Below are positions 10,936 through 49,470 of a stretch of DNA of 64,000 nucleotides, one piece after another (the first letter of the stretch is position 1; every line of letters begins with the position of its first letter). Under the pieces are notes generated by a model, which was not told where the DNA came from, did no database searches, and was given only the letters and a program-made list of their open reading frames with translations. Both the position numbers and the translations under genes were made by a program. The stretch spans positions 1 through 64,000 of the forward strand of contig NZ_VDFW01000027.1 of the NCBI RefSeq assembly GCF_006152065.1, written 5' to 3'. The stretch is from Amycolatopsis alkalitolerans (GTDB taxonomy: Bacteria; Actinomycetota; Actinomycetes; Mycobacteriales; Pseudonocardiaceae).

Positions 10936-11826
10936 ATGTCCGAGATGACACTGCCCCGTCCGGTCGGGTTCGTGCTCGGGGGTGGCGGCAGCCTTGGCGC
11001 CATGCAGGTCGGCATGCTGCGGGCGCTCGACGAGCACGGCATCCGCCCGGACCTCGTGGCCGGCACGTCCGTCGGCTCGCTCAACGGCGCGGTCCTCGCC
11101 GCCGCCCCGGAGGACGCGACGCGCCGCCTGCCGGAGATCTGGACGCACCTGACGCGCGCCGAGGCGTTCCCCGGCGGCGTGTTCAGCCGGGTCCGCACGC
11201 TCCACCACGCGAAAACCCACCTGTTCCCCAACACCGGACTCGCGATGATCATCCGGCAACATCTCGGTGGGGGTGCGACGTTCGACGACCTCGAAGTTCC
11301 CCTCGGCGTGGTGACCACCGACGTCGACACCGCCGAACCCGTGCTGGTCCGCTCCGGCGAACTGCTGCCCACCCTGCTCGCGAGTTCCGCGATCCCCGGG
11401 ATCTACCCGCCGGTCGAGCACGAGGGCCGCCTGCTCTACGACGGCGGCCTCGTCGCGAACGTGCCGATGAGGCAGGCGCTGCACATGGGTGCGCGCTCGC
11501 TCGTCGTGCTCGACTGCGCCTTCCCCGGCCAGATCCCGTCGCCGCCGCACACGTTCGCCGAGGTCCTGATGTACACGGCGATGATCAGCATGCGGAACCA
11601 GGCCGTGCTCGAGGCGCCGCTCGCGGCCGCCGAGGTGCCGGTCGTGTACCTGCCGGGACCGGTGCCGGTGCGGATGAGCCCGCTCGATTTCAGCCATACC
11701 GCGGAATTGGACAAAAGTGCCTATGGGGCCGCCCTGGCATATCTCGACGACCTGCTCGTCGCCGGTCCCGGACTTTACGGAGGACCCGGTGTGAAAGTCG
11801 TGTCAGCCGCGGAAAGCCCAGCGTGA
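10936..11826 (+). CDS. Patatin-like phospholipase (RssA type)
   Basis: 296-aa cytosolic serine hydrolase with a Ser-Asp dyad. The oxyanion loop VLGGGGSLGAMQVG is at residues about 12-25, the nucleophile elbow is GTSVG (about 42-46), and the aspartate is in LYDGGLVANVP (about 170). ATG has a strong upstream AGGGGAGGGG. A membrane segment or signal peptide is not visible. Divergent from the acyl-CoA dehydrogenase, with a 157-bp spacer, so both could act in lipid turnover, but this is inference from position. Confidence 0.9.
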   Translation: MSEMTLPRPVGFVLGGGGSLGAMQVGMLRALDEHGIRPDLVAGTSVGSLNGAVLAAAPEDATRRLPEIWTHLTRAEAFPGGVFSRVRTLHHAKTHLFPNTGLAMIIRQHLGGGATFDDLEVPLGVVTTDVDTAEPVLVRSGELLPTLLASSAIPGIYPPVEHEGRLLYDGGLVANVPMRQALHMGARSLVVLDCAFPGQIPSPPHTFAEVLMYTAMISMRNQAVLEAPLAAAEVPVVYLPGPVPVRMSPLDFSHTAELDKSAYGAALAYLDDLLVAGPGLYGGPGVKVVSAAESPA

Positions 11827-11927
11827 CACACGCCACTTCGCCGCAACAAACCACGTGGTGGGCCGTCCATACCAGCGCGGTACTTTGATGCACAGCCCGC
11901 TCCTTCGACCTCCACAAAAGAGACCTG

Positions 11928-13163
11928 ATGTTTTTGACCAAGCCTTTACGTCTTCCTGGCAGATCTCGTTCCGGCGTGCTCATCGGCCTGTTACTGACCG
12001 CGCTTGCCGTTTCGGCGTGCAGTTCCGGCAATTCGGGCACGACCTCCCCTAACGGAAACAACGGCGGTGCTGCCACGTCGCCGGCGGCTCCCGCGGTGTC
12101 GCTCTCGATCCAGCCCGCCGCCGACTCGACCAACGTCAGCCCCACCACGCCGATCGTCGTGAAGGCCGCGGGCGGCACCATCACCGACGTCACGGTCACC
12201 AACGCGGCCAAGGGCACCAAGGTCAACGGCAGCCTGTCGGCGGACAAGACGACGTGGACGTCGAGCGATGCGCTCGGCTACGGGGCGAAGTACCAGATCG
12301 ACGCGCACGCGACCGACCCCTCGGGCAAATCCGTGGACCAGCAGAGCACCGTGAGCACGATCAAGCCCGCGAAGCAGGCCAACGCGAACCTGATCCCGGC
12401 GCCGTCCTCGGTGGCGCAGACCGGCGTCGGCGTCGGCCAGCCGATCGTGTTCCAGTTCTCCTACGACGTGAAGAACAAGGCGGCGGTGGAGAAGCAACTG
12501 TCGGTCAAGTCGAACCCGCCGCAGGAGGGCGGCTGGTACTGGGTCGACAGCAAGAACGTGCACTACCGGCCGAAGGACTACTGGCAGCCGGGCACCACGC
12601 TGACGGTGTCCGCGAAGATCTACGGGGTCGACTTCGGCAACGGCGTGTACGGCGCGGAAGACCGCACGGAGACCTACCACGTGCACGACTCGTGGATCGC
12701 GAAGGCCGACGGCAACACCGAACAGATGCAGATCTTCCACAACGGGCAGATGGTCAAGTCGATGCCGATCTCGATGGGCAAGGACGCGACCCCGACGCAT
12801 CTGGGCGCGCACGTGATCTCGTTCAAGTCGGCGAACTACATCATGGACTCGTGCACGTACGGCGTGTGCCCGCCCGACCCGAATGCGTACCGGTCGAACG
12901 AGCAGTGGTCGGAACGCATTTCCAACGACGGCGAGTTCGTGCACGAGAACCCGAACAGCGTGGGCGCGCAGGGCAGTACGAACGTGTCACACGGCTGCAT
13001 CAACCTCAACGCGGCCAACGCCCAGTGGTTCTTCAACACCTTGGGGCTCGGCGATGTCGTCGAGGTGGCCAATTCCGGCGGCCCGCAGCTGCCCGTGTGG
13101 GACCTCTACGGCGACTGGGCCTTGTCGTGGAGCCAGTGGCAGAAGGGCAGTGCACTCAGCTGA
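11928..13163 (+). CDS. L,D-transpeptidase lipoprotein
   Basis: 411-aa secreted cell-wall enzyme that forms 3-3 cross-links in peptidoglycan. The N-terminus carries a signal peptide with lipobox LAVSAC (Cys about 29), then a Thr/Ser/Pro-rich linker and two Ig-like regions as in mycobacterial LdtMt2. The C-terminal YkuD domain ends with the active-site motif SHGCINLNAANAQWFF. The preceding HENPNSVG supplies the first conserved histidine. A perfect terminator follows. ATG start gives a normal lipoprotein signal. Family firm; number of Ig domains is estimated by eye. Confidence 0.93.
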   Translation: MFLTKPLRLPGRSRSGVLIGLLLTALAVSACSSGNSGTTSPNGNNGGAATSPAAPAVSLSIQPAADSTNVSPTTPIVVKAAGGTITDVTVTNAAKGTKVNGSLSADKTTWTSSDALGYGAKYQIDAHATDPSGKSVDQQSTVSTIKPAKQANANLIPAPSSVAQTGVGVGQPIVFQFSYDVKNKAAVEKQLSVKSNPPQEGGWYWVDSKNVHYRPKDYWQPGTTLTVSAKIYGVDFGNGVYGAEDRTETYHVHDSWIAKADGNTEQMQIFHNGQMVKSMPISMGKDATPTHLGAHVISFKSANYIMDSCTYGVCPPDPNAYRSNEQWSERISNDGEFVHENPNSVGAQGSTNVSHGCINLNAANAQWFFNTLGLGDVVEVANSGGPQLPVWDLYGDWALSWSQWQKGSALS

Positions 13164-13171
13164 CCTCGCTT

Positions 13172-13210
13172 CGAGAGGCCGGGATCTCCGCGGGGGATCC
13201 CGGCCTCTCG
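13172..13210. terminator. Bidirectional terminator, ldt / ltrA
   Basis: Perfect 15-bp repeat CGAGAGGCCGGGATC / GATCCCGGCCTCTCG with a 9-nt loop, exactly filling the 47-bp gap between two convergent genes. Confidence 0.85.
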
Positions 13211-14389
13211 CTATTCCCCGACCGGGTGGCCGTGGGTCGCGACGACGCTCGTCACGACGAGACCCACCACGACGACCGCGGCGAGGTGCACCGGCAGCGG
13301 AGTGAACGACACCGCGAGCACCAGCGCGGCCGCGAGCGGGAACCCCACGGCGATCGGGCGGCATTCGTTGCGCGGCCCGACATGCAGCAGCCACACACTC
13401 AGCAGGTACAGCGCGATCGGCACGTTCAGTGCGAGCGCGGTGCCCAGCCCGCCGAGATGGCCGGTGTGGGTGTCGTAGTCGATCACCAGCTCGAGCCCGG
13501 TCCCGACGGCCGCCGCCGAGCCGAAGATCACGTAGTGCCCGTAGCCCCACACGTAGCCCCGCCGGAACTGCGCCAGCCGCCGGTGCGCGGGCTGGTCGAA
13601 GTAGAGCCACCACATCGCGAACACGATCGCCACCCCCGCGATCGCGACCGAGATCAGCCCGCCGGCGGGATGCCCGCTGCCGAGTGCCTCCTGCAGCGCG
13701 TTGCTCGCCGCGAGCACCGATTCGCCGAGCACGATCAGGGTGAACAGCCCGTACCGCTCACCGATGTGGTGCGGGTGCCAGTTCGTCGGGGCCGCCTGCT
13801 CGGCCCAGACCGGGACCAGCAGTTCGGCCACGACGAGCACGAGGAAGCTCGGCAGGAACCACGATTCCGGCACCGCGAGCCGCAGCAACCAGCCCAGCTG
13901 GACGACGGTGACCCCGAGCGCGTAGCGCAGCGCGGTCGGCCGGTTGCCCTCGTCCTGGCGCGCCGCGCGCAACCACTGGCCGACCATCGCGAACCGCATG
14001 ATCACGTACCCGGCGGTGACCGTGGTGAAGTCCTCGTGCCAGGCGTCCGGCACCCCGGCGGCGACCACGAGGGCGCCGACGATCTGCACGAACGTCGCGA
14101 CGCGGTACGGCACGTCGTCGGTGTCGAAGGCCGACGCGAACCAGCTGAAGTTCACCCAGCCCCACCAGATCGCGAAGAACACCAGGAGGTAGGACAGGAC
14201 GCCGTGCCCGATCTGGTGCTCGGCGAGGGAATGGTGCAGTTGCCCGCCCGCCATGCTCACCGCGACCACGAAACACAGGTCGAACAGCAGCTCCAGCGGT
14301 GTCGCGGCGCGATGCCGCTCCGAACGGTCTCGGGCCGTCATCGGCCGGTACCACACGTGGGCCGGGCGCGGTGCGCGCTCGTCGGGCAT
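13211..14389 (-). CDS. Low temperature requirement A (LtrA) family membrane protein
   Basis: 392-aa polytopic membrane protein of the LtrA family. The start region PLELLFDLCFVVAVS contains the family hallmark ELxxDLxFV, and YVWGYGHYVIFGSAAAVGTG and ERYGLFTLIVLGES are further conserved segments. Ten or more hydrophobic segments. ATG preceded by GGAGG. The biochemical role of LtrA proteins is not established; the name comes from cold-growth phenotypes in Listeria. Single gene, transcribed away from the long spacer at 14.4-15.2 kb. Confidence 0.88.
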   Translation of the reverse strand: MPDERAPRPAHVWYRPMTARDRSERHRAATPLELLFDLCFVVAVSMAGGQLHHSLAEHQIGHGVLSYLLVFFAIWWGWVNFSWFASAFDTDDVPYRVATFVQIVGALVVAAGVPDAWHEDFTTVTAGYVIMRFAMVGQWLRAARQDEGNRPTALRYALGVTVVQLGWLLRLAVPESWFLPSFLVLVVAELLVPVWAEQAAPTNWHPHHIGERYGLFTLIVLGESVLAASNALQEALGSGHPAGGLISVAIAGVAIVFAMWWLYFDQPAHRRLAQFRRGYVWGYGHYVIFGSAAAVGTGLELVIDYDTHTGHLGGLGTALALNVPIALYLLSVWLLHVGPRNECRPIAVGFPLAAALVLAVSFTPLPVHLAAVVVVGLVVTSVVATHGHPVGE

Positions 14390-15185
14390 CTCGGCTCCTC
14401 CGGTCAGGGGCAGACGGCCGATATCCCATCATGAAAACGCGCTGGGCTCGGGTGGGCTCAGCTCCCCCTCCTGCGAGCCCACCCGAGCGGGTGCCTTCGC
14501 GCGATCACCGAACGGTCCCCCGCGGACGCCGGCAATGGCGCCGAGAAATGAGCGTGCGTGTCCCCATCGGACGACTACGGCTCGTTCGGCTGGTGGCCCC
14601 ATCCCCGGACCGCCAACCGGACCGCCACTTTCCGTAGCGAATCCCTCGAAGTGAAGGCTCGACCAGGTTTACCCGGTTGCTCTCAGTAGCGCCACCTCAT
14701 TAGGGAAACCATCACTCGTATGGAGCAGTGAATACTACGTGCTGTAGTTGGTTGGCCGACCGCCGTACTCACCGCACCGGGCGAGGTCGTGACCGCGAGG
14801 CTCGCGTTCTCCGCCGGGATTAGCCACAACCTCGCGCCCGGTCCGGTCACAGTGCGCTTCCGGCCCGATGGGAAACGAGCCGTCCCGCAAGCGCGGCCAA
14901 GACCGCTAAGCCGGGCGCGAACGGCGTCACGGACAGCCCAGATCGCGACGGAGAGTAATCGTTTCCTTGCTGGAAGAACGCGCGACAACCAGCCCTCAGA
15001 CGGAGAATCGCGATGAACAGCCTCGGTGCATCCGAGCAGTGGGCTATTGCGGTCGGTTCAGCCAGAACTGCCGCAGATCACGCTGCGCGGCGTCCTCGTG
15101 GCCACGGCGGAACTCGCCCCCGCCCGGCACCGTGTGCTGGGCGTGTTCGCCTCGTGACCTACGGGGCAGCCGACCGGCGGGCTCG
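14390..15185. other. 796-bp spacer with little or no coding content
   Basis: No convincing intact gene between ltrA and dnaE. It is visibly less GC-rich around 14640-14760. It contains a degenerate coding-like stretch (14732-14881) and a short minus-strand stretch ending HEDAAQRDLRQFWLNRPQ (about 15044-15130) that has coding-like third positions but no convincing start. No tRNA, repeat array or IS end was recognised. Confidence 0.6.
14732..14881 (+). pseudogene. Possible remnant of a decayed gene
   Basis: About 50 codons without a stop, with strong GC third-position bias in the central part: TAPGEVVTARLAFSAGISHN then LAPGPVTVRFRPDGKRAV. It reads like one edge of a beta-sandwich domain. There is no ATG or ribosome site; only an internal GTG at 14789. 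The stretch is flanked by low-GC, non-coding sequence. Family not recognised; chance reading is possible. Confidence 0.3.
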
Positions 15186-38505: not shown

Positions 38506-39774
38506 TCAACGGTGATCGGGACGGGCTCGGCTCCCGGCGGCTTGCAGCAGCGCGATGGCGGCCATGAGGATCGCCGTGCCGAACCCCAGCGAGGCATAGG
38601 ACGCCTGGGCGACAACCACCCCGGCGACCGATCCACCGAGCGCGGCGGCGCCGTTCATCACCAGATCCGACACCCCCTGCGCGGACGTGCGGCTCGCGGC
38701 CGGCATCGATTCCGACAGCAGCGCGGAGCCCGCGACGATCCCGCACGACCAGCCCAGGCCGAGGAGGAACAGCCCGATCCCCAACTGGACCACGCTGCCG
38801 CCCGGCGCCGCCCCGCTCACCACCGCCGCCACGGCGGTCAGCACCGCTCCGCCGAGGACGACCGGTACCCGGCCCACGCTGTCGGCCAGCCATCCGGTCA
38901 GCGGCGAAAGCCCGTACATCCCAACGATATGCACGCTGATCACCAGCCCGATGACGGTCAGCGTCACCGCCACGTGGTGCATGTGCACGGGTGTCATCAC
39001 CATGACCGACACCATCGCCATGTGAGACGACGCCACGGCAACCAACCCGATCAGGGCCCGCGGACGCGCCACGATGAGACGCAAGGTCGTGAGGAATCCG
39101 GCCTTCGCGGATTCCGGGTCATCGTGCGTCGCCTCCCGCTGCGCCAGCAGCAAGGGATCGGGACGCAACAGGATGACCAGCACCGTTGCCGCGCACGCGA
39201 AGCACAGCATGGCGATGAAGAACGGGCCGGCCAGCGGCGGCAGGCCGATCAGACCGCCGAACCGGCCGGCGGGTTCGGCGAGGTTGGGCCCGAGCACCGA
39301 CCCCACGGTGGTCGCCCATACGACCGTCGCCAGCGCGCGGGCCGCCCGTCGCGGGGCGGCCAGGTCCATCGCGCCGTAGCGTGCCTGCAGTCCGGCCGCG
39401 GTGGCCGCGCCGAACAGCAGGAGCCCGCCCAGCAGCAGTGGCAGGGACCGCACTACGGACGCCAGGACGACGACCGCGGCCCCGGCCGCGCCCGTCGCCA
39501 TCCCGGTCGCCAAACCGGCCCGCCTGCCGCGACGGCGGGACAGCCGGCCCAGCGGAACGGCCGCGACGGCCGCCCCCAGCACGCTGAAGGTCTGCGCGAG
39601 CCCGCCGGCGCCGTCGGTTCCGGCGATATCCGCCGCGATCAGGGCGCCGACGGCCACGCCCACCGCGACACCGAGACCGCCGAGGATCTGGGCGGCGGAC
39701 AACACGGCGACGGTGCGTCGCTGCACGACCGCGGTTTCGGCGCGCCGCGGGCTGAGGGCGGGTTCGGACGACAC
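38506..39774 (-). CDS. MFS transporter
   Basis: 422-aa major facilitator protein with about 12 hydrophobic segments. Family marks are PLGRLSRRRGRRAGLATGM after TM2 (GRxxDRxGRR-like) and PLTGWLADSVGRVPVVLGG in the second half. The GTG at 39774 is preferred: the longer reading upstream is arginine-rich and would run into the ATPase gene. The stretch AGAAGGG is about 12 nt upstream. It lies 16 bp after the peptide ABC operon on the same strand and is probably its last gene, possibly exporting a by-product. Substrate unknown. Confidence 0.85.
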   Translation of the reverse strand: MSSEPALSPRRAETAVVQRRTVAVLSAAQILGGLGVAVGVAVGALIAADIAGTDGAGGLAQTFSVLGAAVAAVPLGRLSRRRGRRAGLATGMATGAAGAAVVVLASVVRSLPLLLGGLLLFGAATAAGLQARYGAMDLAAPRRAARALATVVWATTVGSVLGPNLAEPAGRFGGLIGLPPLAGPFFIAMLCFACAATVLVILLRPDPLLLAQREATHDDPESAKAGFLTTLRLIVARPRALIGLVAVASSHMAMVSVMVMTPVHMHHVAVTLTVIGLVISVHIVGMYGLSPLTGWLADSVGRVPVVLGGAVLTAVAAVVSGAAPGGSVVQLGIGLFLLGLGWSCGIVAGSALLSESMPAASRTSAQGVSDLVMNGAAALGGSVAGVVVAQASYASLGFGTAILMAAIALLQAAGSRARPDHR

Positions 39775-39790
39775 GGTCGGGGTGGCCCTT

Positions 39791-40765
39791 CTAGGCGGCG
39801 AGCGGGAAATGACATTCAACCAGGTGTCCGCGCGCGACCTCGACCGTCGGCGGCGGGACACGAGCGCAGACGTCCTTCGCGACCGGGCAGCGGCTGCGGA
39901 ACCGGCATCCGCTCGGCACATCGGTCGGTGACGGTGGTTCACCGGTCAGCAGCTGCCGGTTACCGCGCCGGGCGGGGTCCGGGACCGGCGCGGCGGCCAG
40001 CAGGGCCCGCGAGTAGGGGTGCCGCGGCCGCTCGAAGAAGGCGCGGGTCTCGGCGACTTCCACGAGCCGCCCGAGATACATCACCCCGACGCGGTGCGAG
40101 ATCTGGCGTACCACCGGGAGGCCGTGCCCGATGAACAGGTACGTCAGCCCGAGCCGCTCTCGCAGGTCGGCCAGCAGGTTCACCACCTGCGCCTGCACCG
40201 AGACGTCGAGTGCGGACACGGGTTCGTCGGCCAGGACGAGCCGCGGATTCACCGCGATCGCGCGGGCGATCCCCACGCGCTGCCGCTGCCCGCCGGACAG
40301 CGAGCGGGGAAACGCGGTGGCCTTCGCGCCATCCAGCCCGACCGCGCTGAGCAGTTCCGCAACCCGGTCGCGCAACTCGTCGCCGCGCATCCGGTGGAAG
40401 ACCCGCAACGGCTCGGCCACGATCTGCCCGACGCGCATCCTCGCGTTGAGCGAGCCGAGCGGATCCTGGAACACCGCCTGCATCTGCGCGCGCAGCCGGC
40501 GCAGCTGTTCGCCGCGCAGGCCCGTGACGTCGCGGCCGTCGAAGTACACGCGTCCCGCCGTCGGATCCTCCAGCCGCAACGCCAGCCGGCCCAGCGTCGA
40601 CTTGCCGGAGCCCGACTCGCCGACCAGTCCGAACGTCTCACCGGCGGTCAGGCCGAGCGACACACCGTCGACGGCGCGGACCACGGCGGGGCGCTGGAAC
40701 GGGTTGGGGCTGCTGCGCACCTTGTAGTGCCGTGACACACCGTCCAGCCGCATCAGCAGGGTCAT
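39791..40765 (-). CDS. Peptide/opine ABC importer ATPase 2 (DppF-like)
   Basis: 324-aa ATPase of the OppF/DppF type: Walker [16 protein letters not shown]-loop AVFQDPLGSLNARM, signature LSGGQRQRVGIARAIA, Walker B RLVLADEPVSALD, C-terminal GCRFRSRCPVAKDVC cysteine motif of the oligopeptide ATPase tail. The H-loop reads LFIGHGLPVV; most relatives have ISHDL, so the histidine is kept but flanks differ. ATG overlaps the preceding gene by 4 bp (ATGA). Confidence 0.92.
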   Translation of the reverse strand: MTLLMRLDGVSRHYKVRSSPNPFQRPAVVRAVDGVSLGLTAGETFGLVGESGSGKSTLGRLALRLEDPTAGRVYFDGRDVTGLRGEQLRRLRAQMQAVFQDPLGSLNARMRVGQIVAEPLRVFHRMRGDELRDRVAELLSAVGLDGAKATAFPRSLSGGQRQRVGIARAIAVNPRLVLADEPVSALDVSVQAQVVNLLADLRERLGLTYLFIGHGLPVVRQISHRVGVMYLGRLVEVAETRAFFERPRHPYSRALLAAAPVPDPARRGNRQLLTGEPPSPTDVPSGCRFRSRCPVAKDVCARVPPPTVEVARGHLVECHFPLAA

Positions 40766-41784
40766 GACCGGTCTCCGTCCTGGGGGTTCCAGCAGGCGGT
40801 GGGCACCGGGCCGGCGGTCACCAGCGGCGGGTCCTCGGTACCGCAGCGGTCGAGTGCGCGGGCGCAACGCGGCTGGAACGCACATCCCGCCGGCAGGCGC
40901 CCTGGTTCCGGGACCCCGCCGGGGATATCGGGCAACCGGCCCGGTCGTTCACCTTCCAGCGGCGGGATACACGCGAGCAGCCCGGCGGTGTAGGGATGCC
41001 GCGGTCCGCCGAAGATCTGCGCGGGCTCGCCGACCTCGACGACGCGTCCCGCGTACATGACCGCGACTCGGTCGGCGACCTCGGCGGCGACCCCGAGATC
41101 GTGCGTCACCAGCAGGACGGACATGCCGGTGTCCGACCGCAACCGGTCGATCAGGTCGAGGATCTGGGCCTGCACGGTCACGTCGAGCGCCGTGGTCGGT
41201 TCGTCGGCGATCAGCAGTTTCGGCGAGCAGGCCAGCGCCATGGCGATCATCACCCGCTGGCACATCCCGCCGGAGAGCTGGTACGGGTAGCTGCGCAGCA
41301 CCCGGCCGGCGTCGGAGATACCGACCTCGCCCAGCAGTTCGCGCATCCGCGCGCGCTCGGCCCGCCTGCTGCTCCGGCCCTCGCGGCGCAGAGCCTCGGA
41401 CAGCTGGGCCGCCACCGTGAACACGGGATCCAAAGCGGACAGTGGCTCCTGGAAGACCATCGCCATTTCCCGGCCGCGCAGCCGGCGCAGCTCGCCGTCG
41501 CCGGCCTCGGCGAGGTTCCGCCCTGCCAAGGTGATGCGGCCCTGCACGGCGAAAGCCGGGTCGCGCCGGGTCAGCCCCAGGATCGTCCGCGCCGTCACGC
41601 TCTTGCCGCTGCCCGACTCGCCGACGAGGCACACCGTCTCTCCCGCGCCGACGTCCAAGGTCGCGTCGCGCACGAGGTCGACACCGGACCCGCGCAGGGT
41701 GACCCGCACTCCGTCTAGCGTCAGCAATGGCCCGGCGCGGTCCGGCGCCGGCTCCGTGGCGCTCACCTGTGTCGATGCCGTCAT
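40762..41784 (-). CDS. Peptide/opine ABC importer ATPase 1 (DppD-like)
   Basis: 340-aa ATPase: Walker [16 protein letters not shown], signature [16 protein letters not shown], Walker [16 protein letters not shown]-loop [15 protein letters not shown], and the C-terminal [15 protein letters not shown] oligopeptide-ATPase tail. It starts 4 bp after the DppC-like permease stop and overlaps the DppF-like gene. Energises the importer as a heterodimer with it. Confidence 0.92.
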
Positions 41785-41788
41785 CGGT

Positions 41789-42640
41789 TCACTCCCGGTC
41801 CATCCGGTCGCGCAGCCAGTCGCCGAGCAGGCTGACGCTGATCACCACCAAGGTCAGCGCGAGCCCGGGAAAGGTCGAGACCCACCAGGCGTTCGCGAGG
41901 TACGGCTGTCCCGAGGACAGCAGCTGTCCCCAGTCCGGCACGTCGCTGCTCGGTCCGAGCCCGAGGAACGACAACGACGCGGCGAGCACGATCGACGTGC
42001 CCACCGACACGGTGGCCAGCACGACCACCGGCGCGATCGCGTTGGGCAGCACATGCCGCAGTAGCACCCGGGTGCGCCGCAGCCCGGTCGCGCGCGCGGC
42101 CTGCACGAACAGGCGGCCGCGCACCGCCATCACCTGGCCCCGCATGACACGGGCGAACACCGGCATCGTGGCGACCGCGACGCCCAGGACCAGGTTGAGC
42201 CTGCTCGCCCCGAGCCCGGCGGTGATCACCAGCGCGAGCAGGACTCCGGGGAAGCACATGAGAATGTCGACGAGCCTGCCGAGCGCGGAGTCCACGATGC
42301 CGCCGAGGTAGCCGGCGAGCAGGCCCAGTACGGTGCCGGCCGTCGCGGCCAGCGCCACCGAAGACAACCCGATCACCACGGCGGTGCGGGCGCCGTGCAC
42401 GAGGAGCGCCAGCACGCTGCGGCCGTACTGGTCCGTGCCGAGCAGCGTCCCCTGCCCGGGACCCCGCAGCACCTGGTCCGGATGCAGCGCGGCGGGATCC
42501 CCCGGTGCCAGCACGCCGGGAACCAGCGCCGCAGCAAGCGTGAGCAGCACGATCACCCCGGCGACGCAGAGCATGATCCGGTTCGACGACAGCCACGGCG
42601 GTACCCGGCGCCGCGGCAACGTCGCGGTGACGGCGGTCAT
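41789..42640 (-). CDS. Peptide/opine ABC importer permease (DppC-like)
   Basis: 283-aa permease. N-terminal membrane helix (IMLCVAGVIVLLTLAAALVP), then LGTDQYGRSVLALLVHGART, the DppC hallmark, and the EAA-type loop VQAARATGLRRTRVLLRHVL. Five or six membrane segments. ATG overlaps the amidohydrolase stop (ATGA), giving direct translational coupling between a hydrolase and an importer subunit. Partner of the DppB-like permease at 43911. Confidence 0.92.
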   Translation of the reverse strand: MTAVTATLPRRRVPPWLSSNRIMLCVAGVIVLLTLAAALVPGVLAPGDPAALHPDQVLRGPGQGTLLGTDQYGRSVLALLVHGARTAVVIGLSSVALAATAGTVLGLLAGYLGGIVDSALGRLVDILMCFPGVLLALVITAGLGASRLNLVLGVAVATMPVFARVMRGQVMAVRGRLFVQAARATGLRRTRVLLRHVLPNAIAPVVVLATVSVGTSIVLAASLSFLGLGPSSDVPDWGQLLSSGQPYLANAWWVSTFPGLALTLVVISVSLLGDWLRDRMDRE

Positions 42641-43878
42641 CGGCTGACCGCCTTCGCCATGGCGAGACCGGTGGGCGCCGGCGGTGCGGGGAGGGCGGCC
42701 TCGCCGACCGGATCCGGCTGGAACGGGGTCCCCCGCGCGACGACAAGGCGCAGCGAGTGCAGGGCCGAGATATCGGCGAGCGGGTCACCCTCGACGGCGA
42801 TCAGGTCAGCCGACAGCCCGGGACGCAGCCGCCCGGTGACCTCGCCGAGCCCGAGCGCCTCGGCGGCCCGCGCGGTCGCCGCGTACAGCACCTGGTCCGC
42901 CGGCAGGCCGACCATCGCGAGCGCTTCGAGCCCCGCCACGTAGGCGTAGTGGGGCACGTTGTCGATCCCGGCGTCCGTGCCCGCGATGATCTTCGCGCCA
43001 CGTTCGTGCAGTACCGGCAGCGAGGGTTTGAAATCCTCGCCGCGGGTGGCGAGGAACTCCGCATACCGCGTGTTCACGGTCGGGCAGACGTAGGCACCGC
43101 TCGCGACGATCCGTGCCACGAGTTCGTCGTCGACCGACATCCGGCCGTCCGGCAGTACGAACGAGCAGTGTTCGAGGGTGTCCACGCCCGCGTCCAGCGC
43201 GCGGCGGATGCCTTCCACCCCGTGCGCGTGCGCGGCGACCCGCTTGCCGAGGCGATGTGCCTCGCCGACCGCCGCCGCGAGCTGGCCGTCGGTGAACTGC
43301 GCGAACCACGGCGCCGAACCGGCCGTCATGAATCCGCCGGTGGACATGACCTTGATCAGGTCCACGCCCATCTTGTGGTGCAGCCGGACCATCCGCCGCA
43401 CCTCGTCGTCGGTGTCACATTCGCCGCCCATGAACCAGCAGTGCCCGCCGGTGACGGTGAGCGGCCGCCCGGCGGTCACCATGCGCGGGCCGCGGGCGAT
43501 ACCCGTGTCGATGGCATCACGCACCACCACGTCCAGAAAGGACCGCGCACCGAGGTCGCGCGCGGTCGTGACGCCCACGCTGAGCAACTCGCGCGCGCTG
43601 CGCAACATGAGCACGAGCTGCTGCGGGTCGCTTTCGGCCTTCATCCGCTCGACCGGCGCGGGCCCGCCGTCGAACCCGAGATGCACGTGGCTGTCGATCA
43701 GTCCGGGCAGCAGGGTGAGATCACCGAGCTCCACCCGCTCGACCGCCCCGTAGTCCGGTGGCAGCTCGGCGGCCGGACCGACCCAGGCGATGGTGTCACC
43801 GTCGACGAGCACACCCGCGCCGGCGTGGACCTCGCCCTGCTCACCGGTCAGCACCCGGTTCGCCGTGTAGAACTTCAT
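42637..43878 (-). CDS. Amidohydrolase (imidazolonepropionase/Xaa-Pro dipeptidase-like)
   Basis: 413-aa cytosolic metal-dependent hydrolase of the amidohydrolase superfamily. HxH motif LIDSHVHLGF (about residues 60-69), lysine metal bridge in VDLIKVMSTGGFM, histidines in RVAAHAHGVEGIRRAL and TLEHCSF, and the catalytic aspartate in IIAGTDAGIDNVP. This subset hydrolyses Xaa-Pro dipeptides, aryl amides or cyclic imides. The gene sits between the two permease genes of a Dpp-type importer, so the imported compound is very likely its substrate. Not a signal-peptide protein; ATG at 43878 starts MKFYTANRVLTGEQG. Confidence 0.9.
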   Translation of the reverse strand: MKFYTANRVLTGEQGEVHAGAGVLVDGDTIAWVGPAAELPPDYGAVERVELGDLTLLPGLIDSHVHLGFDGGPAPVERMKAESDPQQLVLMLRSARELLSVGVTTARDLGARSFLDVVVRDAIDTGIARGPRMVTAGRPLTVTGGHCWFMGGECDTDDEVRRMVRLHHKMGVDLIKVMSTGGFMTAGSAPWFAQFTDGQLAAAVGEAHRLGKRVAAHAHGVEGIRRALDAGVDTLEHCSFVLPDGRMSVDDELVARIVASGAYVCPTVNTRYAEFLATRGEDFKPSLPVLHERGAKIIAGTDAGIDNVPHYAYVAGLEALAMVGLPADQVLYAATARAAEALGLGEVTGRLRPGLSADLIAVEGDPLADISALHSLRLVVARGTPFQPDPVGEAALPAPPAPTGLAMAKAVSR

Positions 43879-43910
43879 GATCGATTCCCTTCCGGCACCG
43901 AGGCAGCACC

Positions 43911-44846
43911 TCAGCTCTTGCCGATCGCCACCCGGACCCGCGGGTCGACATAGGCGTAGGAGACGTCGACGACGATGTTGATGAGCAGGTAGATCGCCGC
44001 GATCACCAGGACGACGCCCTGAATGACCGGGTAGTCCTGTCCCTGGATGGCTTGCACGAGCGTCTGGCCGAGGCCGCGCCGCGCGAACACGGTCTCCACG
44101 ATCACGGCACCGGCGAGCAGCGCGCCGAGCTGGAAGCCGATGATCGTGATGGTGGGGATCACCGCGTTGCGCAGGACGTGCTTGCCGACCACGACCCGGG
44201 TACGCAAACCCTTGGCGTGCAAGGCGGTCACGAAGTTCTCGCCGAGTACTTCGATGATGCTGTTGCGGACCAGCCTGGTCACCACGCCGGCCGCCGACAG
44301 CCCCAGCGTGACGCTCGGCAGGACCAGCGACGCCGCGCCCGCGCTTCCGGTCGCGGGGAACAGGTGCAGCGTGAACGAGAACAGCATGATCAGCAACAGC
44401 CCCACCCAGAACGAGGGCATCGCGGTGCTGATCAGGCTCAGCACCCGGATCATGCCGTCCAGCCAGGAGTTCCGGAAGATCGCGGACAGCGAGCCGAGCA
44501 GGATCCCGGCGACCGCCGAGACCGCGGCCGCGCACAGTGCGAGCTGCAACGTGGGCCAGATCTGCTGCCCGATCACCTGCGTCACGGGTTGCCGGGTCGA
44601 ATACGAGGTGCCGAGGTCCAAGGTCACCGCGTCCTTGACGAAGCTGAGGTACTGCTGCCACAACGGCTGGTCGAGGCCGAACTGCTGGCGCAGGCTCGCC
44701 GCGACCTGCGGTGTGCTCGGCGAGGAGCCGAGCAGCACCGAGACCGGGTCGCCAGGAAGCAGCCGCAGTGTGATGAACAGGATGACGGTGACCCCGATCA
44801 GGGTGGGGATGGCGATCAGGACCCGTTTCACGAGCGCGTAGGTCAC
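43911..44846 (-). CDS. Peptide/opine ABC importer permease (DppB-like)
   Basis: 311-aa permease. DppB family N-terminus (YALVKRVLIAIPTLIGVTVI, LRLLPGDPVSVLLG), EAA-type loop VTALHAKGLRTRVVVGKHVL and C-terminal VIAAIYLLINIVVDVSYAYV followed by DPRVRV. Six membrane segments. Starts 25 bp after the binding-protein gene; the amidohydrolase gene follows after 32 bp. Confidence 0.92.
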   Translation of the reverse strand: MTYALVKRVLIAIPTLIGVTVILFITLRLLPGDPVSVLLGSSPSTPQVAASLRQQFGLDQPLWQQYLSFVKDAVTLDLGTSYSTRQPVTQVIGQQIWPTLQLALCAAAVSAVAGILLGSLSAIFRNSWLDGMIRVLSLISTAMPSFWVGLLLIMLFSFTLHLFPATGSAGAASLVLPSVTLGLSAAGVVTRLVRNSIIEVLGENFVTALHAKGLRTRVVVGKHVLRNAVIPTITIIGFQLGALLAGAVIVETVFARRGLGQTLVQAIQGQDYPVIQGVVLVIAAIYLLINIVVDVSYAYVDPRVRVAIGKS

Positions 44847-44871
44847 TTTGTCCCTCCGATGTGGAGACTCG

Positions 44872-46542
44872 CTAACTCGCCAGGTAGGTGTCGTAGAAGA
44901 TCGGGTAGCCCTCGGCGTCGAACCGAAGGCCCGCTACGCCGGCGCCCGTCGCCGCCGTATAGGTCGGGACGTACACGGGGATGCTGAAGGCATCCTGGGT
45001 GATCTCCTTCTGCAAGGCCGAGTACTTGGCCATCCGGGAGGTCCGGTCGAGGTCCTGCTGAGCGGCGAGCAGCTCGCCGTCCAGCGCCGGATCCGACACC
45101 CGCGCCATGTTGAAGCCCAGCGCCTGCGGCTTGGGTACGAACTTCGAGGAGTAGACGGAGTAGAGCACGTTCGGATCGATGTTCACCAGGCTCAGCCCGA
45201 CGATGTCGTAGTCGCCGGCTTGGATCGCCGCCTGCAACGGCGCCGTCTGGACGAGCTTGACGGTGACCTCGACCCCGATGTCCTTCATGTTCTGCTTGAA
45301 GAACTCCGCGATGTCCTGCCGTTTCTCGCGGTTCGGCGAGGCCTCGAGGTAGGTGATGCTCAGGCGCTGCCCGTCCCGCTGGCGTATCCCGTCCGCACCG
45401 GGTACCCAGCCGAGCGCGTCGAGTGCCGAGCGAGCGGCGTTCGCGTTGAACTGCCAGCTGTTCTCGACGGTCCGGTCGTAGCCGGACGTACTCGGTGAGA
45501 GCGGGGACCAGGCGCGGTCGTAAACCCCGAAGTAGAGCGACTTCACGGCGGAGGCGACGTCGAAGCCCGACCTGATCGCCCGCCGCAGCGCCGGATCGCC
45601 CCAAGGAGCCTTGGCCGTGTTGAAATGCAGCTGGAACGGCGAGCCGGACTGGTTCTGCTTGTAGAAGTGCAGTGTGCTGTCGTTCTGGACGGCGGAGACC
45701 TGGGTCTCCGGCACGTTGCCGACCATCTGCACCGCACCGCTGCGCAGGGACCCCATCCGCACGGTCGCGTCGGGAATGATCTGGAAGGTCAGCGTGTCCA
45801 AATAGGCCGGTCCACTGTGGCCGGCGCCGGCCGGGCCCCAGGCGTAGGAGTCGTTGCGCGCCAGCACGATCCGGTCATTGGTCGTGTAGGAGACGAACTT
45901 GTACGGCCCGGTGCCGACGGGTTTGAGCCGGAAAGCCTGCGCCCCCTCGGCGCGGACGGCGGTGGGCGAGACCATGCCGAGGAACGGCGAGCTCAGGTTC
46001 GCGAGAAACGGCGCGTAGGGCGCGGACAGCGTGACGACCGCGGTGTTCGGCGCCGTGGCGGCGCACGACTTGTAGGGCCCGATGGCGCCGATCGCGAACA
46101 CCGAGCCCGTCGACGGGTCCGCGATCCGGTCGAGGTTGAAGCAGACCGCGCCGGCGTCGAACGGCGTCCCGTCGTGGAATGTCACGCCGTCGCGCAGGGT
46201 GAAGGTGTAGGTCTTGCCGTCCGGGCTGATCGTCCACGCACTGGCCAGCCACGGCACCTGTTTCGTGCCGTCGGGAGTGGTGGCCACAAGGCTGTCGTAG
46301 AGCTGGCGCAGAACGCGTGCTTCCTGCGCCGAGGCGGCCACGTTCGGATCGAGCCCGGTGATACCGGTGTCGATGGCGACGGTAAGGCTGCCGCCGGGCT
46401 TGGGTGGACCGACCGGGCCTGCCGCGCCGGTCGCCCCGCTGCAGGCCGCGGCCATGATCGGGATCAGGCCGCAGGCGAGCGCGGTTCGCCATCGGCGGGT
46501 GCGGCGCCGGAGTGGAGTGAGGGCGTGGGGGTTCAGTCTCAT
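44872..46542 (-). CDS. Peptide/opine ABC importer, binding lipoprotein (family 5)
   Basis: 556-aa extracellular binding protein of the DppA/OppA/NikA family with lipobox PIMAAACSG. Family blocks: GGSLTVAIDTGITGLDPN, PWLASAWTISPDGKTYTFTL, PVGTGPYKFVSY, and NTAKAPWGDPALRRAIRSGF. ATG at 46542 has AAAGG 8 nt upstream and yields a normal signal peptide; an earlier in-frame ATG would add 21 polar residues. First gene of the importer operon, with a 301-bp regulatory region shared with the divergent YheO-type regulator. Confidence 0.9.
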   Translation of the reverse strand: MRLNPHALTPLRRRTRRWRTALACGLIPIMAAACSGATGAAGPVGPPKPGGSLTVAIDTGITGLDPNVAASAQEARVLRQLYDSLVATTPDGTKQVPWLASAWTISPDGKTYTFTLRDGVTFHDGTPFDAGAVCFNLDRIADPSTGSVFAIGAIGPYKSCAATAPNTAVVTLSAPYAPFLANLSSPFLGMVSPTAVRAEGAQAFRLKPVGTGPYKFVSYTTNDRIVLARNDSYAWGPAGAGHSGPAYLDTLTFQIIPDATVRMGSLRSGAVQMVGNVPETQVSAVQNDSTLHFYKQNQSGSPFQLHFNTAKAPWGDPALRRAIRSGFDVASAVKSLYFGVYDRAWSPLSPSTSGYDRTVENSWQFNANAARSALDALGWVPGADGIRQRDGQRLSITYLEASPNREKRQDIAEFFKQNMKDIGVEVTVKLVQTAPLQAAIQAGDYDIVGLSLVNIDPNVLYSVYSSKFVPKPQALGFNMARVSDPALDGELLAAQQDLDRTSRMAKYSALQKEITQDAFSIPVYVPTYTAATGAGVAGLRFDAEGYPIFYDTYLAS

Positions 46543-46648
46543 TCCGGGTGCCTTTCCAGTGTCACCTGATGGAGTCAAGCTAAAAACCTGCGTTGACATG
46601 GTCAATGCATGGTTGAAGCCTGCAACAGACAGTTGACATCGCCGAAAT

Positions 46649-46662
46649 ACTGGGGCCCCAGT
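46649..46662. promoter_or_regulatory. 14-bp perfect palindrome
   Basis: ACTGGGGCCCCAGT, fully symmetrical, near the middle of the divergent region. Candidate dimer-binding site. Confidence 0.5.
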
Positions 46663-46766
46663 GTTACAAGATCTCGCAACATTGCGATTTCCCTTGCTTC
46701 AAGCCAATCTCGGTGTCAGCGTTGGGAGCGGACGGTACGCGCGAGGGTCCGTTCGAAGCAGCGCGC

Positions 46767-46779
46767 TGAACCCGGTTCA
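46767..46779. promoter_or_regulatory. 13-bp perfect palindrome before the regulator
   Basis: TGAACC-C-GGTTCA, followed 8 bp later by TTGAATTCAA. Candidate autoregulatory site of the YheO-type regulator. Confidence 0.5.
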
Positions 46780-46843
46780 ACTTGCCGTTGAATTCAAGCG
46801 CTACGCTCAGCACCATCCCGACGGGTGATAGGAAGGACGATCA

Positions 46844-47662
46844 GTGAGCGCAGCGGCAGGGCGCACGACCTCTCGACGACGCGAGGCGGCCGGCGGCATC
46901 CCCGCGCGGAGCGTCGATGGCGAGCGGCTGCTCGCGGTCTTCGCGAGCCTGGTGGAGCCCATCGGCCGGTCGTTGCCACCGAACAGCGAAGTCGTGCTCC
47001 ATGACCTGAGCATGTTGCCCAACTCGATCGTCGCCGTGCACGGCGACGTGACGGGCCGCAGCGTCGGCGATCCCGCGACGGACCTGTTGCTGGAACACCT
47101 CATGCGCGGCGCGGAAGGCCATCTGGTCGACTACGAGACGAAGCTGCCGGACGGCAGGCGACTGCGCTCCTCGACGATGATCATCAAGGATGTGGCTGGC
47201 ACCCCGGCCGCCGCGCTGTGCATCAACACAGACGTCTCGGCCTGGGAAACGGTACGGCGCATCGCGGAGTCCATGGCCGGTGAGACGACATCGGCCCCCG
47301 GCGCCGAGGCGTCCACATCGGACGCCCCACGCGTGGCTTCCCCGCGGTACCAGGGGCCGAAGGCGAGCACTGAGGCGTTCGTGCACGACGTGGACGAGCT
47401 CGCCGCGATCCTGATCGAACGGACGATCGCCGAGGTCGGGCTGCCCGTCGAACTGATGCGCAAGGAACACAAGATGCGGGTGGTGGAGCAGCTGCGCGAA
47501 CGCGGCATGTTCCTGCTCAAGGACGCCGTCGAGATGGTCGCGACGGCATTGTCGGTCACCCGGTTCACGATCTACAACTACCTCAACGAAATCGCCGGCC
47601 AGATTCCCGATTCCGCGGACCGGGGCGCTGCTGGGAAGCCGGCAAGACGGAAGGACGGCTGA
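46844..47662 (+). CDS. YheO/DauR-type PAS transcriptional regulator
   Basis: 272-aa regulator. N-terminal YheO-like PAS domain with NSEVVLHDLSMLPNSIVAVH and a DTKLP-like segment YETKLPDGRRLRSSTMII, then INTDVSAWETV. C-terminal helix-turn-helix (GMFLLKDAVEMVATALSVTR, FTIYNYLNEI). In Pseudomonas aeruginosa the family member DauR represses D-arginine catabolism; here the ligand is unknown. Divergent from the importer operon and directly followed (1 bp) by the PatB-type lyase, so it likely controls uptake and breakdown of one compound. GTG start with AGGAAGGA upstream. Confidence 0.88.
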   Translation: MSAAAGRTTSRRREAAGGIPARSVDGERLLAVFASLVEPIGRSLPPNSEVVLHDLSMLPNSIVAVHGDVTGRSVGDPATDLLLEHLMRGAEGHLVDYETKLPDGRRLRSSTMIIKDVAGTPAAALCINTDVSAWETVRRIAESMAGETTSAPGAEASTSDAPRVASPRYQGPKASTEAFVHDVDELAAILIERTIAEVGLPVELMRKEHKMRVVEQLRERGMFLLKDAVEMVATALSVTRFTIYNYLNEIAGQIPDSADRGAAGKPARRKDG

Positions 47663-47663
47663 G

Positions 47664-48863
47664 GTGAACCAAGCGGCGGCGTTCGACGCGCTGACCCCGG
47701 ACCTGCTCCGGGCCCGGGGCAGTCTCAAGTGGACGAGGTACGGCGAGGACTCGCTGGCCGCCTTCGTCGCGGAGATGGATTTCGGGACCGCACCGCCGAT
47801 CCTGCAGGCGCTGCACGCGGCCGTGGACACCATGAACTTCGGGTACCTGCCCCCCGCTATGGCCGACGCGATGTCGCAGGCGTGCGCGGAATGGCAATCG
47901 CGCCGGTACGGCTGGCGAGTCCCGCCCGAGGACGTCCATCCGATCCCCGACGTGATCAAGGCGCTGGAAATCGCGATCGAGCACTTCTCCCGTCCGGGCA
48001 GCCCGGTCATCCTGACCACCCCGGCGTACATGCCGTTTCTGACCGTGCCCGGGCTGCTCGGCCGGGAGATCATCCAGGTGCCCATGGCGCTGGATGGGCA
48101 GCGTCACGTGTTCGACCTCGACGGGATCGACGCGGCCTACCGCGCCGGCGGCGACCTGCTCATCCTGTGCAACCCGTACAACCCGCTCGGCCGGGTGTTC
48201 ACCGCGGCGGAGCTGACGGCGCTGGCCGAGGTCGTCGACCGGCACGGTGGTCGCGTGTTCTCCGACGAGATCCACGCGCCGCTCACCTATCCCGGGCACA
48301 CCCACGTGCCGTACGCGTCCCTGTCGGAGACCACGGCCGCGCACACCGTGACCGCCACCTCCGCCTCGAAGGCGTGGAACCTGCCCGGGCTGAAATGCGC
48401 GCAACTGATCATCACCAGCGAGGCCGACGCGCGGACTCTCGCGGACGCCGGCCCGTTCGCCACACACGGCGCGAGCAACCTTGGCGTGGTGGCCAACACC
48501 GCCGCGTTCACCTCCGGCGGGCAATGGCTCGACGATGTGATCGGCTACCTCGACCAGAACCGGTACGCACTGGCCTCCTTGCTGGCCGAGCACCTACCCG
48601 GGGTGGGTTACCGGATTCCCGAAGGCACCTACCTCGCCTGGCTCGACTTGCGCGCCCTCGGTCTGGGCGACAATCCGGGCGAGATCCTTCACGAACGGGC
48701 CGGCATCGTACTCGTCGACGGGCCGGCCTGCGGTGAGCCGGGCCGCGGCTACGCCCGGTTGAACTTCGCCACCCCACGCCCCATCCTGGAGCGGCTAGTG
48801 ACCGGTATCGCCGAGGCAGCGCAACGATTCGGCGGCCAGATCGTCGAACCACAAGCTGGTTGA
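47664..48863 (+). CDS. PatB/MalY-type PLP C-S lyase (aminotransferase class I/II)
   Basis: 399-aa fold-type I PLP enzyme of the MalY/PatB subgroup, which mostly cleaves cystathionine-like C-S bonds. Marks: KWTRYGEDSLAAFVAEMDF at the start, NFGYLPPAMADAM (substrate-loop GY), CNPYNPLGRVF, SDEIHAPLTYPG, and the PLP lysine in SASKAWNLPGLKCA. GTG start 1 bp after the regulator stop. The group can also act as aminotransferases, so the C-S lyase call is by subgroup resemblance. Linked by operon to the YheO-type regulator. Confidence 0.87.
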   Translation: MNQAAAFDALTPDLLRARGSLKWTRYGEDSLAAFVAEMDFGTAPPILQALHAAVDTMNFGYLPPAMADAMSQACAEWQSRRYGWRVPPEDVHPIPDVIKALEIAIEHFSRPGSPVILTTPAYMPFLTVPGLLGREIIQVPMALDGQRHVFDLDGIDAAYRAGGDLLILCNPYNPLGRVFTAAELTALAEVVDRHGGRVFSDEIHAPLTYPGHTHVPYASLSETTAAHTVTATSASKAWNLPGLKCAQLIITSEADARTLADAGPFATHGASNLGVVANTAAFTSGGQWLDDVIGYLDQNRYALASLLAEHLPGVGYRIPEGTYLAWLDLRALGLGDNPGEILHERAGIVLVDGPACGEPGRGYARLNFATPRPILERLVTGIAEAAQRFGGQIVEPQAG

Positions 48864-48962: not shown

Positions 48963-49394
48963 CTAGCCGAGGACACGGACGAGCAAAGCGGCGAGACGAT
49001 CGCGTTCGGTGGACGGCAAGGCGCGGAGCAGGTCAGCCTGAACGGCGGAGAGTGTTGCGTCCAGTTCCGTTAGCCGTCGTTTTCCTGATGGGGTCATGGT
49101 GATCAGGTTGCGGCGGCGGTCGCTGGGGTCCGGAGCGCGCGCGACGTGGCCTTGACTGGTCAGCTCACTGAGCATGGTGTGCATGTCGCTCTGGTCGATT
49201 CCGCACCGCTGGCCGATCCGTACCTGACTGTCGGGGCCGAACTCGTCAAGCGCGGCGAGTATCGCGAAGTGGTAGGCGCGCCCGCCGATAGCGGTCATCG
49301 CGTCGTTGATGAGCCGGTGCCCCCGCGCGGCCGCCTTGTTGATCAGCCAGCTCGGTTTGCTGCGCAGGCGGGTGGGCGTTTCCTCCAGCTCCAT
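48963..49394 (-). CDS. MarR-family regulator
   Basis: 143-aa winged-helix regulator. DNA-binding part: VRIGQRCGIDQSDMHTMLSE, then LTSQGHVARAPDPSDRRRNL with the wing arginine stretch DPSDRRR typical of MarR. ATG start. Divergent from the HbpS-like gene across a 93-bp spacer that holds three identical-arm palindromes (49415-49470), so it almost certainly binds there. MarR proteins often sense phenolics or oxidants; the ligand is unknown. Confidence 0.92.
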   Translation of the reverse strand: MELEETPTRLRSKPSWLINKAAARGHRLINDAMTAIGGRAYHFAILAALDEFGPDSQVRIGQRCGIDQSDMHTMLSELTSQGHVARAPDPSDRRRNLITMTPSGKRRLTELDATLSAVQADLLRALPSTERDRLAALLVRVLG

Positions 49395-49414: not shown

Positions 49415-49470
49415 CTTGGTCACACCAAGCTTGTGTTATTCTTGGTCACACCAAGCTTGGTGCGACCAAG
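49415..49470. promoter_or_regulatory. Three tandem MarR-type operators
   Basis: CTTGGT-CAC-ACCAAG at 49415-49429 and 49441-49455, and CTTGGT-GCG-ACCAAG at 49456-49470: three perfect 15-bp palindromes with the same 6-bp arms. A TGTTATTCT -10-like box lies between the first two. Confidence 0.85.

Follow-up and report, generated by a model that had tools for sequence, protein, structure and literature searches.

Dedicated systems that salvage or break down S-substituted cysteine held in an amide are already known, and the nine-gene cassette analyzed here would be of this kind. It lies at positions 38506 to 48863 of a 64,000-nucleotide stretch of Amycolatopsis alkalitolerans DNA (contig NZ_VDFW01000027.1; the whole stretch is hereafter called the window). 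The thioalcohol route of S. hominis (PMC11742315) likewise starts with uptake of the peptide type, followed by amide cleavage, C-S cleavage by a PatB-type enzyme and thiol release. According to the abstract of that paper, PatB is the only special component of the route, which has neither a dedicated transporter nor a dedicated peptidase, whereas importer, hydrolase, lyase, major facilitator superfamily (MFS) transporter and regulator are found here in one locus; furthermore, its hydrolase is the M20A dipeptidase PepV, whereas the amidohydrolase (AH) of the cassette is an Amidohydro_1 protein and not an M20A enzyme. By analogy, the cassette would nevertheless work like this pathway.

The Bacillus subtilis scm (yxe) pathway for S-(2-succino)cysteine also breaks down an S-modified cysteine with the help of a metal-dependent amide hydrolase, and scm-related clusters exist for other S-alkylcysteines (available parts of PMC9706529 and PMC12757645). 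However, as outlined in these papers, scm acetylates its substrate, cleaves it by a monooxygenase or the 2SL lyase, deacetylates the product by an M20 enzyme and recovers cysteine, whereas the pyridoxal phosphate (PLP)-dependent lyase of the cassette would destroy the cysteine skeleton. No N-acetyltransferase, ScmK/2SL or M20 deacetylase occurs among the nine genes. In M. tuberculosis, the consecutive numbers of Rv0074, a COG1228 amidohydrolase with peptidoglycan-cleaving activity (PMC6347829), and of Rv0075, a proposed C-S lyase 38% identical to AecD (PMC12910592), suggest a pair comparable, by its description, to the AH and PatB-like genes studied here; the available portions of these two papers do not treat them as one pathway, and the function that they give to Rv0075 is a guess. 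No description of a cassette such as the present one was found in the literature searched, most subscription journals lying outside its scope. An initial annotation of the window had presented the locus as a candidate new system: the combination was indeed not found in that literature, but its single components are familiar and it is not of a wholly new kind.

Gene content and conservation of the cassette

Our analysis confirmed the nine-gene cluster and suggests that it is a dedicated import-and-cleave cassette for an amide-held beta-substituted alanine, most likely an S-substituted cysteine, a reading that we regard as moderately probable. Its genes are the following:

38506..~39774, minus strand: MFS transporter, last gene of the cassette (Pfam MFS_1, 2.6e-25; start unsure)
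39791..40765, minus strand: DppF/OppF-type ATPase (ABC_tran and oligo_HPY; 4-bp ATGA overlap with DppD)
40762..41784, minus strand: DppD/OppD-type ATPase (ABC_tran and oligo_HPY)
41789..42640, minus strand: DppC-type permease (BPD_transp_1, 9.1e-27)
42637..43878, minus strand: AH, COG1228-like amidohydrolase of predicted carboxypeptidase-aminoacylase type, 413 aa (Amidohydro_1, 2.4e-37)
43911..44846, minus strand: DppB-type permease (BPD_transp_1, 2.5e-42)
44872..46542, minus strand: family-5 solute-binding protein of 556 aa, the start of which looks lipoprotein-like by eye (SBP_bac_5, 1.1e-82)
46844..47662, plus strand: YheO-like regulator, 272 aa (PAS_6 and HTH_22, both over the Pfam cut-off)
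47664..48863, plus strand: putative PatB/MalY-type PLP C-S (beta-)lyase, 399 aa (TIGR04350, 324.1 bits; motifs kept)

The binding protein, DppB, AH, DppC, DppD, DppF and MFS genes are transcribed in this order from the minus strand. AH and DppC, like DppD and DppF, overlap by an exact ATGA, and 4 to 32 bp separate the genes at the remaining junctions; the YheO-like and PatB-like genes follow each other on the plus strand at a spacing of 1 bp. The coordinates agree exactly with the single minus-strand run and the two overlaps reported by the initial annotation, and also with its divergent arm; its set of eight families becomes one of nine genes. The most likely start of AH is the ATG at 43878, the far-upstream GTG of the longest open reading frame (ORF) being disfavored. 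For the binding protein, the most likely start is the ATG at 46542, which has GGAAAGG just 5′ of it, because a TTG start at 46605 would precede the promoter predicted below.

Related loci (designated by L numbers) were the best 80 of 267 confirmed stretches around AH relatives found in one scan of genomes. The full nine-gene set was found in the order of the window in nine of these 80 loci, belonging to seven other genera: Microlunatus (L031), Occultella (L032 and L034), Auraticoccus (L036), Tessaracoccus (L037), Ruania (L039), Pseudactinotalea (L042) and Microbacterium (L045 and L057). The YheO-like orthologue is 54-63% identical to that of the window in all nine, and an MFS gene whose product is 41-45% identical to that of the window occupies the same place in nine of the 80 related loci. 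None of ten further loci (L111-L120) carries the full set. In Brevibacillus (L053), eight of the nine genes lie on one strand in the order binding protein-DppB-AH-DppC-DppD-DppF-YheO-PatB, followed by AhpD-like, MFS_3 and RidA genes. Since our own ORF caller produced some false ORFs (for example in L040, L043 and L047), what is said of those loci is based on tblastn.

A tree of 96 AH sequences from 89 loci and the window places the AH of the window in a clade of 39 rows, representing the window and 33 loci, five of which have two tandem copies. The cyanobacterial label that the Rhodococcus locus L051 bears on this tree is probably a slip and was disregarded. A PatB homologue (>33% identity) is encoded within 9 kb of AH for 29 of these 39 rows (24 of 34 loci, window included) compared to only one of the 57 rows outside the clade. 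The joint presence of PatB and YheO requires six changes on the tree compared to a mean of 19.9 after shuffling, none of 500 shuffles being as low, although near-copies contribute to this figure. The functional unit claimed by the initial annotation, which made co-occurrence in other genomes its test, is supported both by the recurrence of the full set and by the linkage of the clade to PatB. Chance clustering was ruled out by the recurrence across genera and by this clade-wise linkage. Carriage by plasmids was also considered: a tblastn search of AH against 72,556 plasmid records gave seven records at E <= 1e-60, the best with 48.4% identity, and hence no close copy on these plasmids. The flanks of eight of the nine full cassettes (L034 left out) share only two gene clusters, c26 (L032 and L057) and c59 (L032 and L039), both sugar-permease-like by eye and located several kb from the cassette.

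The window's copy of AH is patchy within its genus and was perhaps acquired by transfer, since the best AH match in 18 other genomes of the genus is only 49% identical (genome G011; locus L112, outside the clade and without PatB nearby). The AH relative of Amycolatopsis taiwanensis (L073) is identical to that of G011. In another genome of the same order (G080; L111), an AH of 64-65% identity adjoins a PatB of 61% identity.

The hydrolase, the lyase and their variant neighborhoods

All six metal-site residues of the amidohydrolase superfamily are present in AH (H64, H66, K176, H217, H237 and D302), providing the HxH, Lys, His, His and Asp ligands of a binuclear site, and the AlphaFold2 model of the protein has a mean pLDDT of 88.4. 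By sequence comparison, its nearest solved structure is 3mtw, the L-arginine carboxypeptidase Cc2672; other solved relatives include 3be7 (a Zn-dependent arginine carboxypeptidase), 2qs8 (a chain named Xaa-Pro dipeptidase), several chains named amidohydrolase and, lower in the list, ochratoxinase (4c5y). In the best alignments, AH has the GGH and HAHG motifs in common with these nearest relatives. In contrast to Cc2672-type enzymes, its clade is linked to PatB, and FDG, GGHCW and APW are invariant in an alignment of 25 close homologues chosen from the best 120 of 2482 proteins passing the threshold. AH is thus predicted from its sequence to be a binuclear-metal amidohydrolase of carboxypeptidase/aminoacylase type. 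The available part of one review treats the aminoacylases and prolidases of this group together (PMC11511702), and a tyrosine binds the alpha-carboxylate of the substrate in Sgx9260b/c, as described in the accessible text of PMC10699109. The initial annotation also considered imides and proline-containing compounds as substrates; these ideas came from family names, and AH scores 263.9 bits against the Xaa-Pro dipeptidase model NF051886, the cut-off of which is 500. The position of the Sgx9260b/c tyrosine presumably corresponds to His219, in the HAHG motif, in both AH and Cc2672.

The PatB-like protein retains the motifs NPYNPLG, SDEIH and SKAWN (with the PLP lysine) and aligns with 3fdb and 6qp3, as expected for a fold-type I enzyme. 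Its residues 20-370 align with 6qp3, a chain named Cystathionine beta-lyase PatB, which we take to be PatB of S. hominis. These resemblances suggest a cysteine-S-conjugate beta-lyase. The hydrolase-then-lyase logic proposed initially is in agreement with an AH of carboxypeptidase/aminoacylase type and a PatB-type lyase. PatB homologues were found at E <= 1e-60 in 128 of 296 genomes evenly sampled from the class. In two loci (L122 and L123), a PatB 64-68% identical to that of the window is directly followed by an MFS gene whose product is 44-51% identical to that of the cassette, without AH, Dpp or YheO genes nearby. The MFS protein may therefore be linked to the product of PatB. As PatB is widespread, AH is rare (see below) and an MFS gene accompanies PatB in these two loci, AH is the specific element of the cassette.

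The importer has the composition of a Dpp/Opp system, with an SBP_bac_5 protein, two BPD_transp_1 permeases and two ABC_tran/oligo_HPY ATPases. Since the binding protein remains below the equivalog cut-offs of DppA (93.7 against 1005 bits), NikA (196.6 against 393) and GsiB (139.5 against 594), its ligand class cannot be read from it; it also remains below that of TIGR04028 (218.3 against 468.5). The MFS protein, weakly similar to multidrug-efflux models but below all their cut-offs, is probably an exporter of the leaving group.

The pairing of AH with PatB is kept with other importers, namely an SBP_bac_3 protein and ABC genes in Rhodococcus (L051) and a GlnH-like protein in Pseudonocardia (L061), and with an MFS protein resembling metabolite/H+ symporters in Arthrobacter (L054). 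The initial annotation deduced immediate hydrolysis of the imported molecule from the location of AH between the permease genes. By itself, this location does not establish such an order of events, since in other loci AH lies after DppF (arrangements such as those of L056, L080 and L038), has no Dpp genes nearby in L054 and L111, and is accompanied by other ABC genes in L051 and L061.

In L063, a class-V PLP enzyme and RidA adjoin AH and YheO, and L080 has the same two clusters. Among NCBIfam models, the class-V enzyme of L063 comes closest to cysteine desulfurases and next to EgtE, without reaching any of their cut-offs. L138 lacks AH and carries, at 9177-14458, an amino acid permease gene together with YheO, RidA and a class-V PLP enzyme; the latter three thus recur in L138, L063 and L080, near 11.2-13.9 kb in the latter two. 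RidA clears 2-aminoacrylate, the product of PLP-dependent beta-elimination, and RidA genes in YheO-linked variants therefore support an elimination step. Linkage of YheO to RidA has already been reported as common in the accessible text of PMC4519771.

Other assemblies were observed around clade members. In five loci from Microbacterium and Agromyces (L038, L044, L048, L049 and L052), a tandem pair of AH genes follows a more distant Dpp set, with a binding protein 29-32% identical to that of the window, and is divergent from YheO-PatB; the two copies fall on separate branches and perhaps serve two related substrates. In L050 (7398-12219), a clade AH is flanked on one side by ECF-transporter-like genes, recognized by eye, and on the other by a PfkB-family kinase gene, with no close PatB within 9 kb, and possibly acts on another substrate class.

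An operator-like array in the divergent gap

Both domains of the YheO-like regulator are well over their cut-offs (PAS_6, 104.5 against 27 bits; HTH_22, 75 against 29.6 bits). Motif finding in the gaps between YheO and binding-protein genes, together with reading of the flanks, gave an array upstream of the binding-protein arm, listed here with the promoter predicted for this arm:

46583..46638, minus strand: operator-like array of three TCAAC-N6-TTG repeats with an exact 20-bp period
46636-46623, 46616-46603 and 46596-46583, minus strand: the three repeats of the array, the third copy being imperfect
46577..46605, minus strand: predicted promoter of the binding-protein arm (-35 TTGACC, 46605-46600; -10 TAGCTT, 46582-46577; 17-bp spacer; consensus match only)

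The motif found is dyad-like (TGTCAAC-N5-GTTGCA, width 18) with a log-likelihood of 84.6, compared to a mean of 33.5 and a maximum of 40.1 for eight Markov shuffles per width; 13 of 15 gap regions were used, L034 and L049 being omitted as near-duplicates. An imperfect dyad of 18 bp, TGTCAACTGTCTGTTGCA, contains the first copy of the array in the window. In leave-one-out scans, the site ranked first in its own sequence in seven of eight cases, the site of L057 coming second after a neighboring repeat. Out of 1,039,130 control positions, none reached the top hit for the window, L031, L032, L042 and L054, one did so for each of L045 and L057, and two for L039. Among seven sequences, the half-site columns are 91% identical compared to 39% for the flanks. 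The three TCAAC-N6-TTG units begin at offsets 2, 22 and 42, the dyad element being the first of them; 20 bp correspond to about two helical turns.

Array scores of 22-24 out of 24 were obtained for eight of 29 sequences scanned (the window, L031, L032, L034, with 23, L039, L042, L045 and L057), the best control score being 16 among 2,074,338 positions. The array is therefore present in eight of the ten full cassettes, window included. It was also searched, with up to three mismatches, in ten whole genomes (nine with a full cassette and that of L054): seven genomes contain it, all 11 matches lie on the cassette according to their coordinates, and the reversed pattern gave no match; it was not found in the genomes of L036, L037 and L054. 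The 18-bp element occurs without mismatch only once in the genome of the window, at the cassette, and with one mismatch at two further places (reversed control, 6). In L054, where MFS-PatB diverge from AH-YheO, the best hit of the position weight matrix (12.4) lies in the divergent gap, and none of 1,039,130 control positions is as high; a hit of 12.2 downstream of PatB in L040 was left uncounted. The triple array is absent from Brevibacillus L053, in which only weak matrix hits were found in a low-G+C background. A weak fourth unit seems to be present past the third repeat, with an unchanged 20-bp period, in L032, L039, L042 and L045, with array matches shifted by 20 bp in their genomes.

The predicted promoter overlaps this array: in the window, the last bases of repeat 2 fall within the -35 box and the spacer is taken up by repeat 3, with TAGCTT coming next at a distance of 17 bp. 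This placement is kept across genera, a TAGnnT box being found at 17 bp in five of the seven array loci compared, and a TA-type box at 18 bp by eye in L031 and L045. From its co-occurrence with the array, we infer that the YheO-like protein binds it, and the location of the array over a core promoter suggests repression. Joint control of the two arms, as put forward by the initial annotation, is plausible from an array placed in the divergent gap.

The adjacent L-PSP (RidA-type) protein increased in Campylobacter jejuni when a YheO-like PAS6-HTH regulator was lost, which is in line with repression by regulators of this type (accessible text of PMC4519771). The cassette's regulator has the same PAS_6 and HTH architecture as this YheO/DauR family (for example Cj1387c, PMC4519771), the orthologues of which are commonly RidA-linked according to that text, as in L053, L063 and L138 here; in contrast, the cassette's regulator accompanies an importer, AH and PatB. 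No YheO-type operator was found in the literature searched: the available text of PMC4519771 contains neither "operator" nor "binding site", and "binding site" is also absent from that of PMC10717218, the regulator of which belongs to another PAS type. The array makes the claim on the regulator directly testable. DauR itself acts in D-arginine catabolism.

Proposed route and alternatives

In the route that we propose, the binding protein and DppBCDF would import a small amide-held beta-substituted alanine, most likely an S-substituted cysteine, in the form of an N-acyl derivative (such as a mercapturate) or of a dipeptide such as a Cys-Gly conjugate or Xaa-Cys(S-R). AH would cut the amide and free the substituted amino acid. 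The PatB-like enzyme would then catalyze a PLP-dependent beta-elimination yielding a thiol and 2-aminoacrylate, the latter giving pyruvate and ammonia, and the MFS protein would expel the thiol or residue. The YheO-like protein would sense the compound or its product and control both arms through the operator made of three 20-bp direct repeats, its repression being lifted by the substrate. Mycothiol producers excrete mercapturates (N-acetylcysteine S-conjugates). It is conceivable, although doubtful, that actinobacteria reclaim extracellular mercapturates or equivalent cysteine-S-conjugate peptides with this single locus, a PatB-partnered AH replacing M20 deacylases and YheO reading the triple repeat.

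The cassette could instead serve the general salvage of nutrient dipeptides or N-acyl amino acids, the PatB-like protein being a cysteine desulfhydrase or cystathionine lyase of sulfur or nitrogen metabolism and no dedicated S-conjugate being involved. Hydrolases of dipeptides and of N-acyl amino acids belong to the AH family (available part of PMC11511702), Dpp-AH modules occur without a local PatB in L033, L047, L056 and L090, and a desulfhydrase role has been proposed for the PatB relative Rv0075 (available part of PMC12910592). However, PatB, YheO and MFS genes accompany AH in nine other full cassettes and, in the seven genomes containing the array, it occurs nowhere else than at the cassette; both observations indicate one specific inducing compound. 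An exporter would also be hard to account for with plain dipeptides, and we consider such a salvage function unlikely. As to the bond cleaved, PatB-type enzymes and other PLP beta-lyases of the same fold are not confined to C-S bonds and also cleave non-sulfur beta-substituents, which counts against a sulfur compound, and the linkage to RidA reports beta-elimination and not the leaving group. The lyase might then target a beta-N-linked (mimosine-like) or an O- or Se-linked substituent supplied as an amide or peptide; this is quite improbable, since the named family that matches the lyase best comprises C-S lyases and the models nearest to the class-V enzyme of L063 (cysteine desulfurases and EgtE) are also sulfur-linked.

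A role in detoxification or resistance, in which a toxic peptide-like natural product would be imported and destroyed, or destroyed and expelled, with the lyase and the MFS protein being protective, appears very improbable. It would be consistent with the weak, below cut-off similarity of the MFS protein to multidrug-efflux models, with the degradation of a mycotoxin by ochratoxinase (4c5y), a relative of AH, and with the patchy distribution. However, ATP-driven import of a toxin would be costly, and no resistance or biosynthesis genes recur by eye beside eight of the full cassettes (L034 left out).

Several observations weigh against a dedicated cassette for an S-substituted cysteine. The lyase scores 324.1 bits over nearly the whole TIGR04350 (PatB C-S lyase) profile, below the cut-off of 340, and should be considered as PatB-like rather than as a certified member of this family. 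PatB homologues of 59-69% identity without AH nearby occur in seven of the 296 genomes sampled from the class, in stretches mostly extending about 9 kb on each side (L126 is cut soon after PatB by a contig end). AH itself was found at E <= 1e-88 in only three of these 296 genomes, six candidates being scored per genome: that of the window and two with 44-50% identity, unplaced with respect to the clade, one of which (L140) has no PatB near AH. The support of the clade node (83/78) is not strong, and 10 of the 39 clade rows have no PatB nearby; out of nine clade genomes in this case, seven hold a PatB at E <= 1e-40 and two (L035 and L059) hold none. Binding protein-Dpp-AH modules about as similar to the window as those of full cassettes are found without PatB or YheO in the locus in L033, L047 and L056, and L090 also has Dpp-AH without either gene. 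Furthermore, the array is absent from the gaps of two full cassettes (L036 and L037), and the triple array from the tandem-AH loci L038, L044, L048, L049 (16/24) and L052 and from Arthrobacter L054.

L033, L047 and L056 represent a second, different assembly around the Dpp-AH module. They have in common an Lrp-type regulator and clusters that correspond in L056 to DUF3335 (peptidase-C39-like) and Amidohydro_3, and their genomes carry PatB elsewhere (best identities of 53, 48 and 51%, respectively).

If the dedicated cassette for S-substituted cysteine is confirmed, a function would be assigned to a distinct clade of the COG1228-type amidohydrolases, which are poorly annotated, and the YheO/PAS_6-HTH_22 regulators, so far little studied, would gain a candidate operator; the locus would also represent by itself a complete route of import, cleavage and export for cysteine S-conjugates. 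As a lead, the AH-PatB pairing may also bear on COG1228-lyase neighbors elsewhere, including those of mycobacteria, in which Rv0072-Rv0073 are presumably ABC transporter genes.

Outside the cassette, a MarR-type gene (48963-49394, minus strand) is divergent from a gene that is GlcG/HbpS-like by eye. The gap between them contains CTTGGTCACACCAAG twice (49415-49429 and 49441-49455) and CTTGGTGCGACCAAG (49456-49470), which are likely MarR operators.

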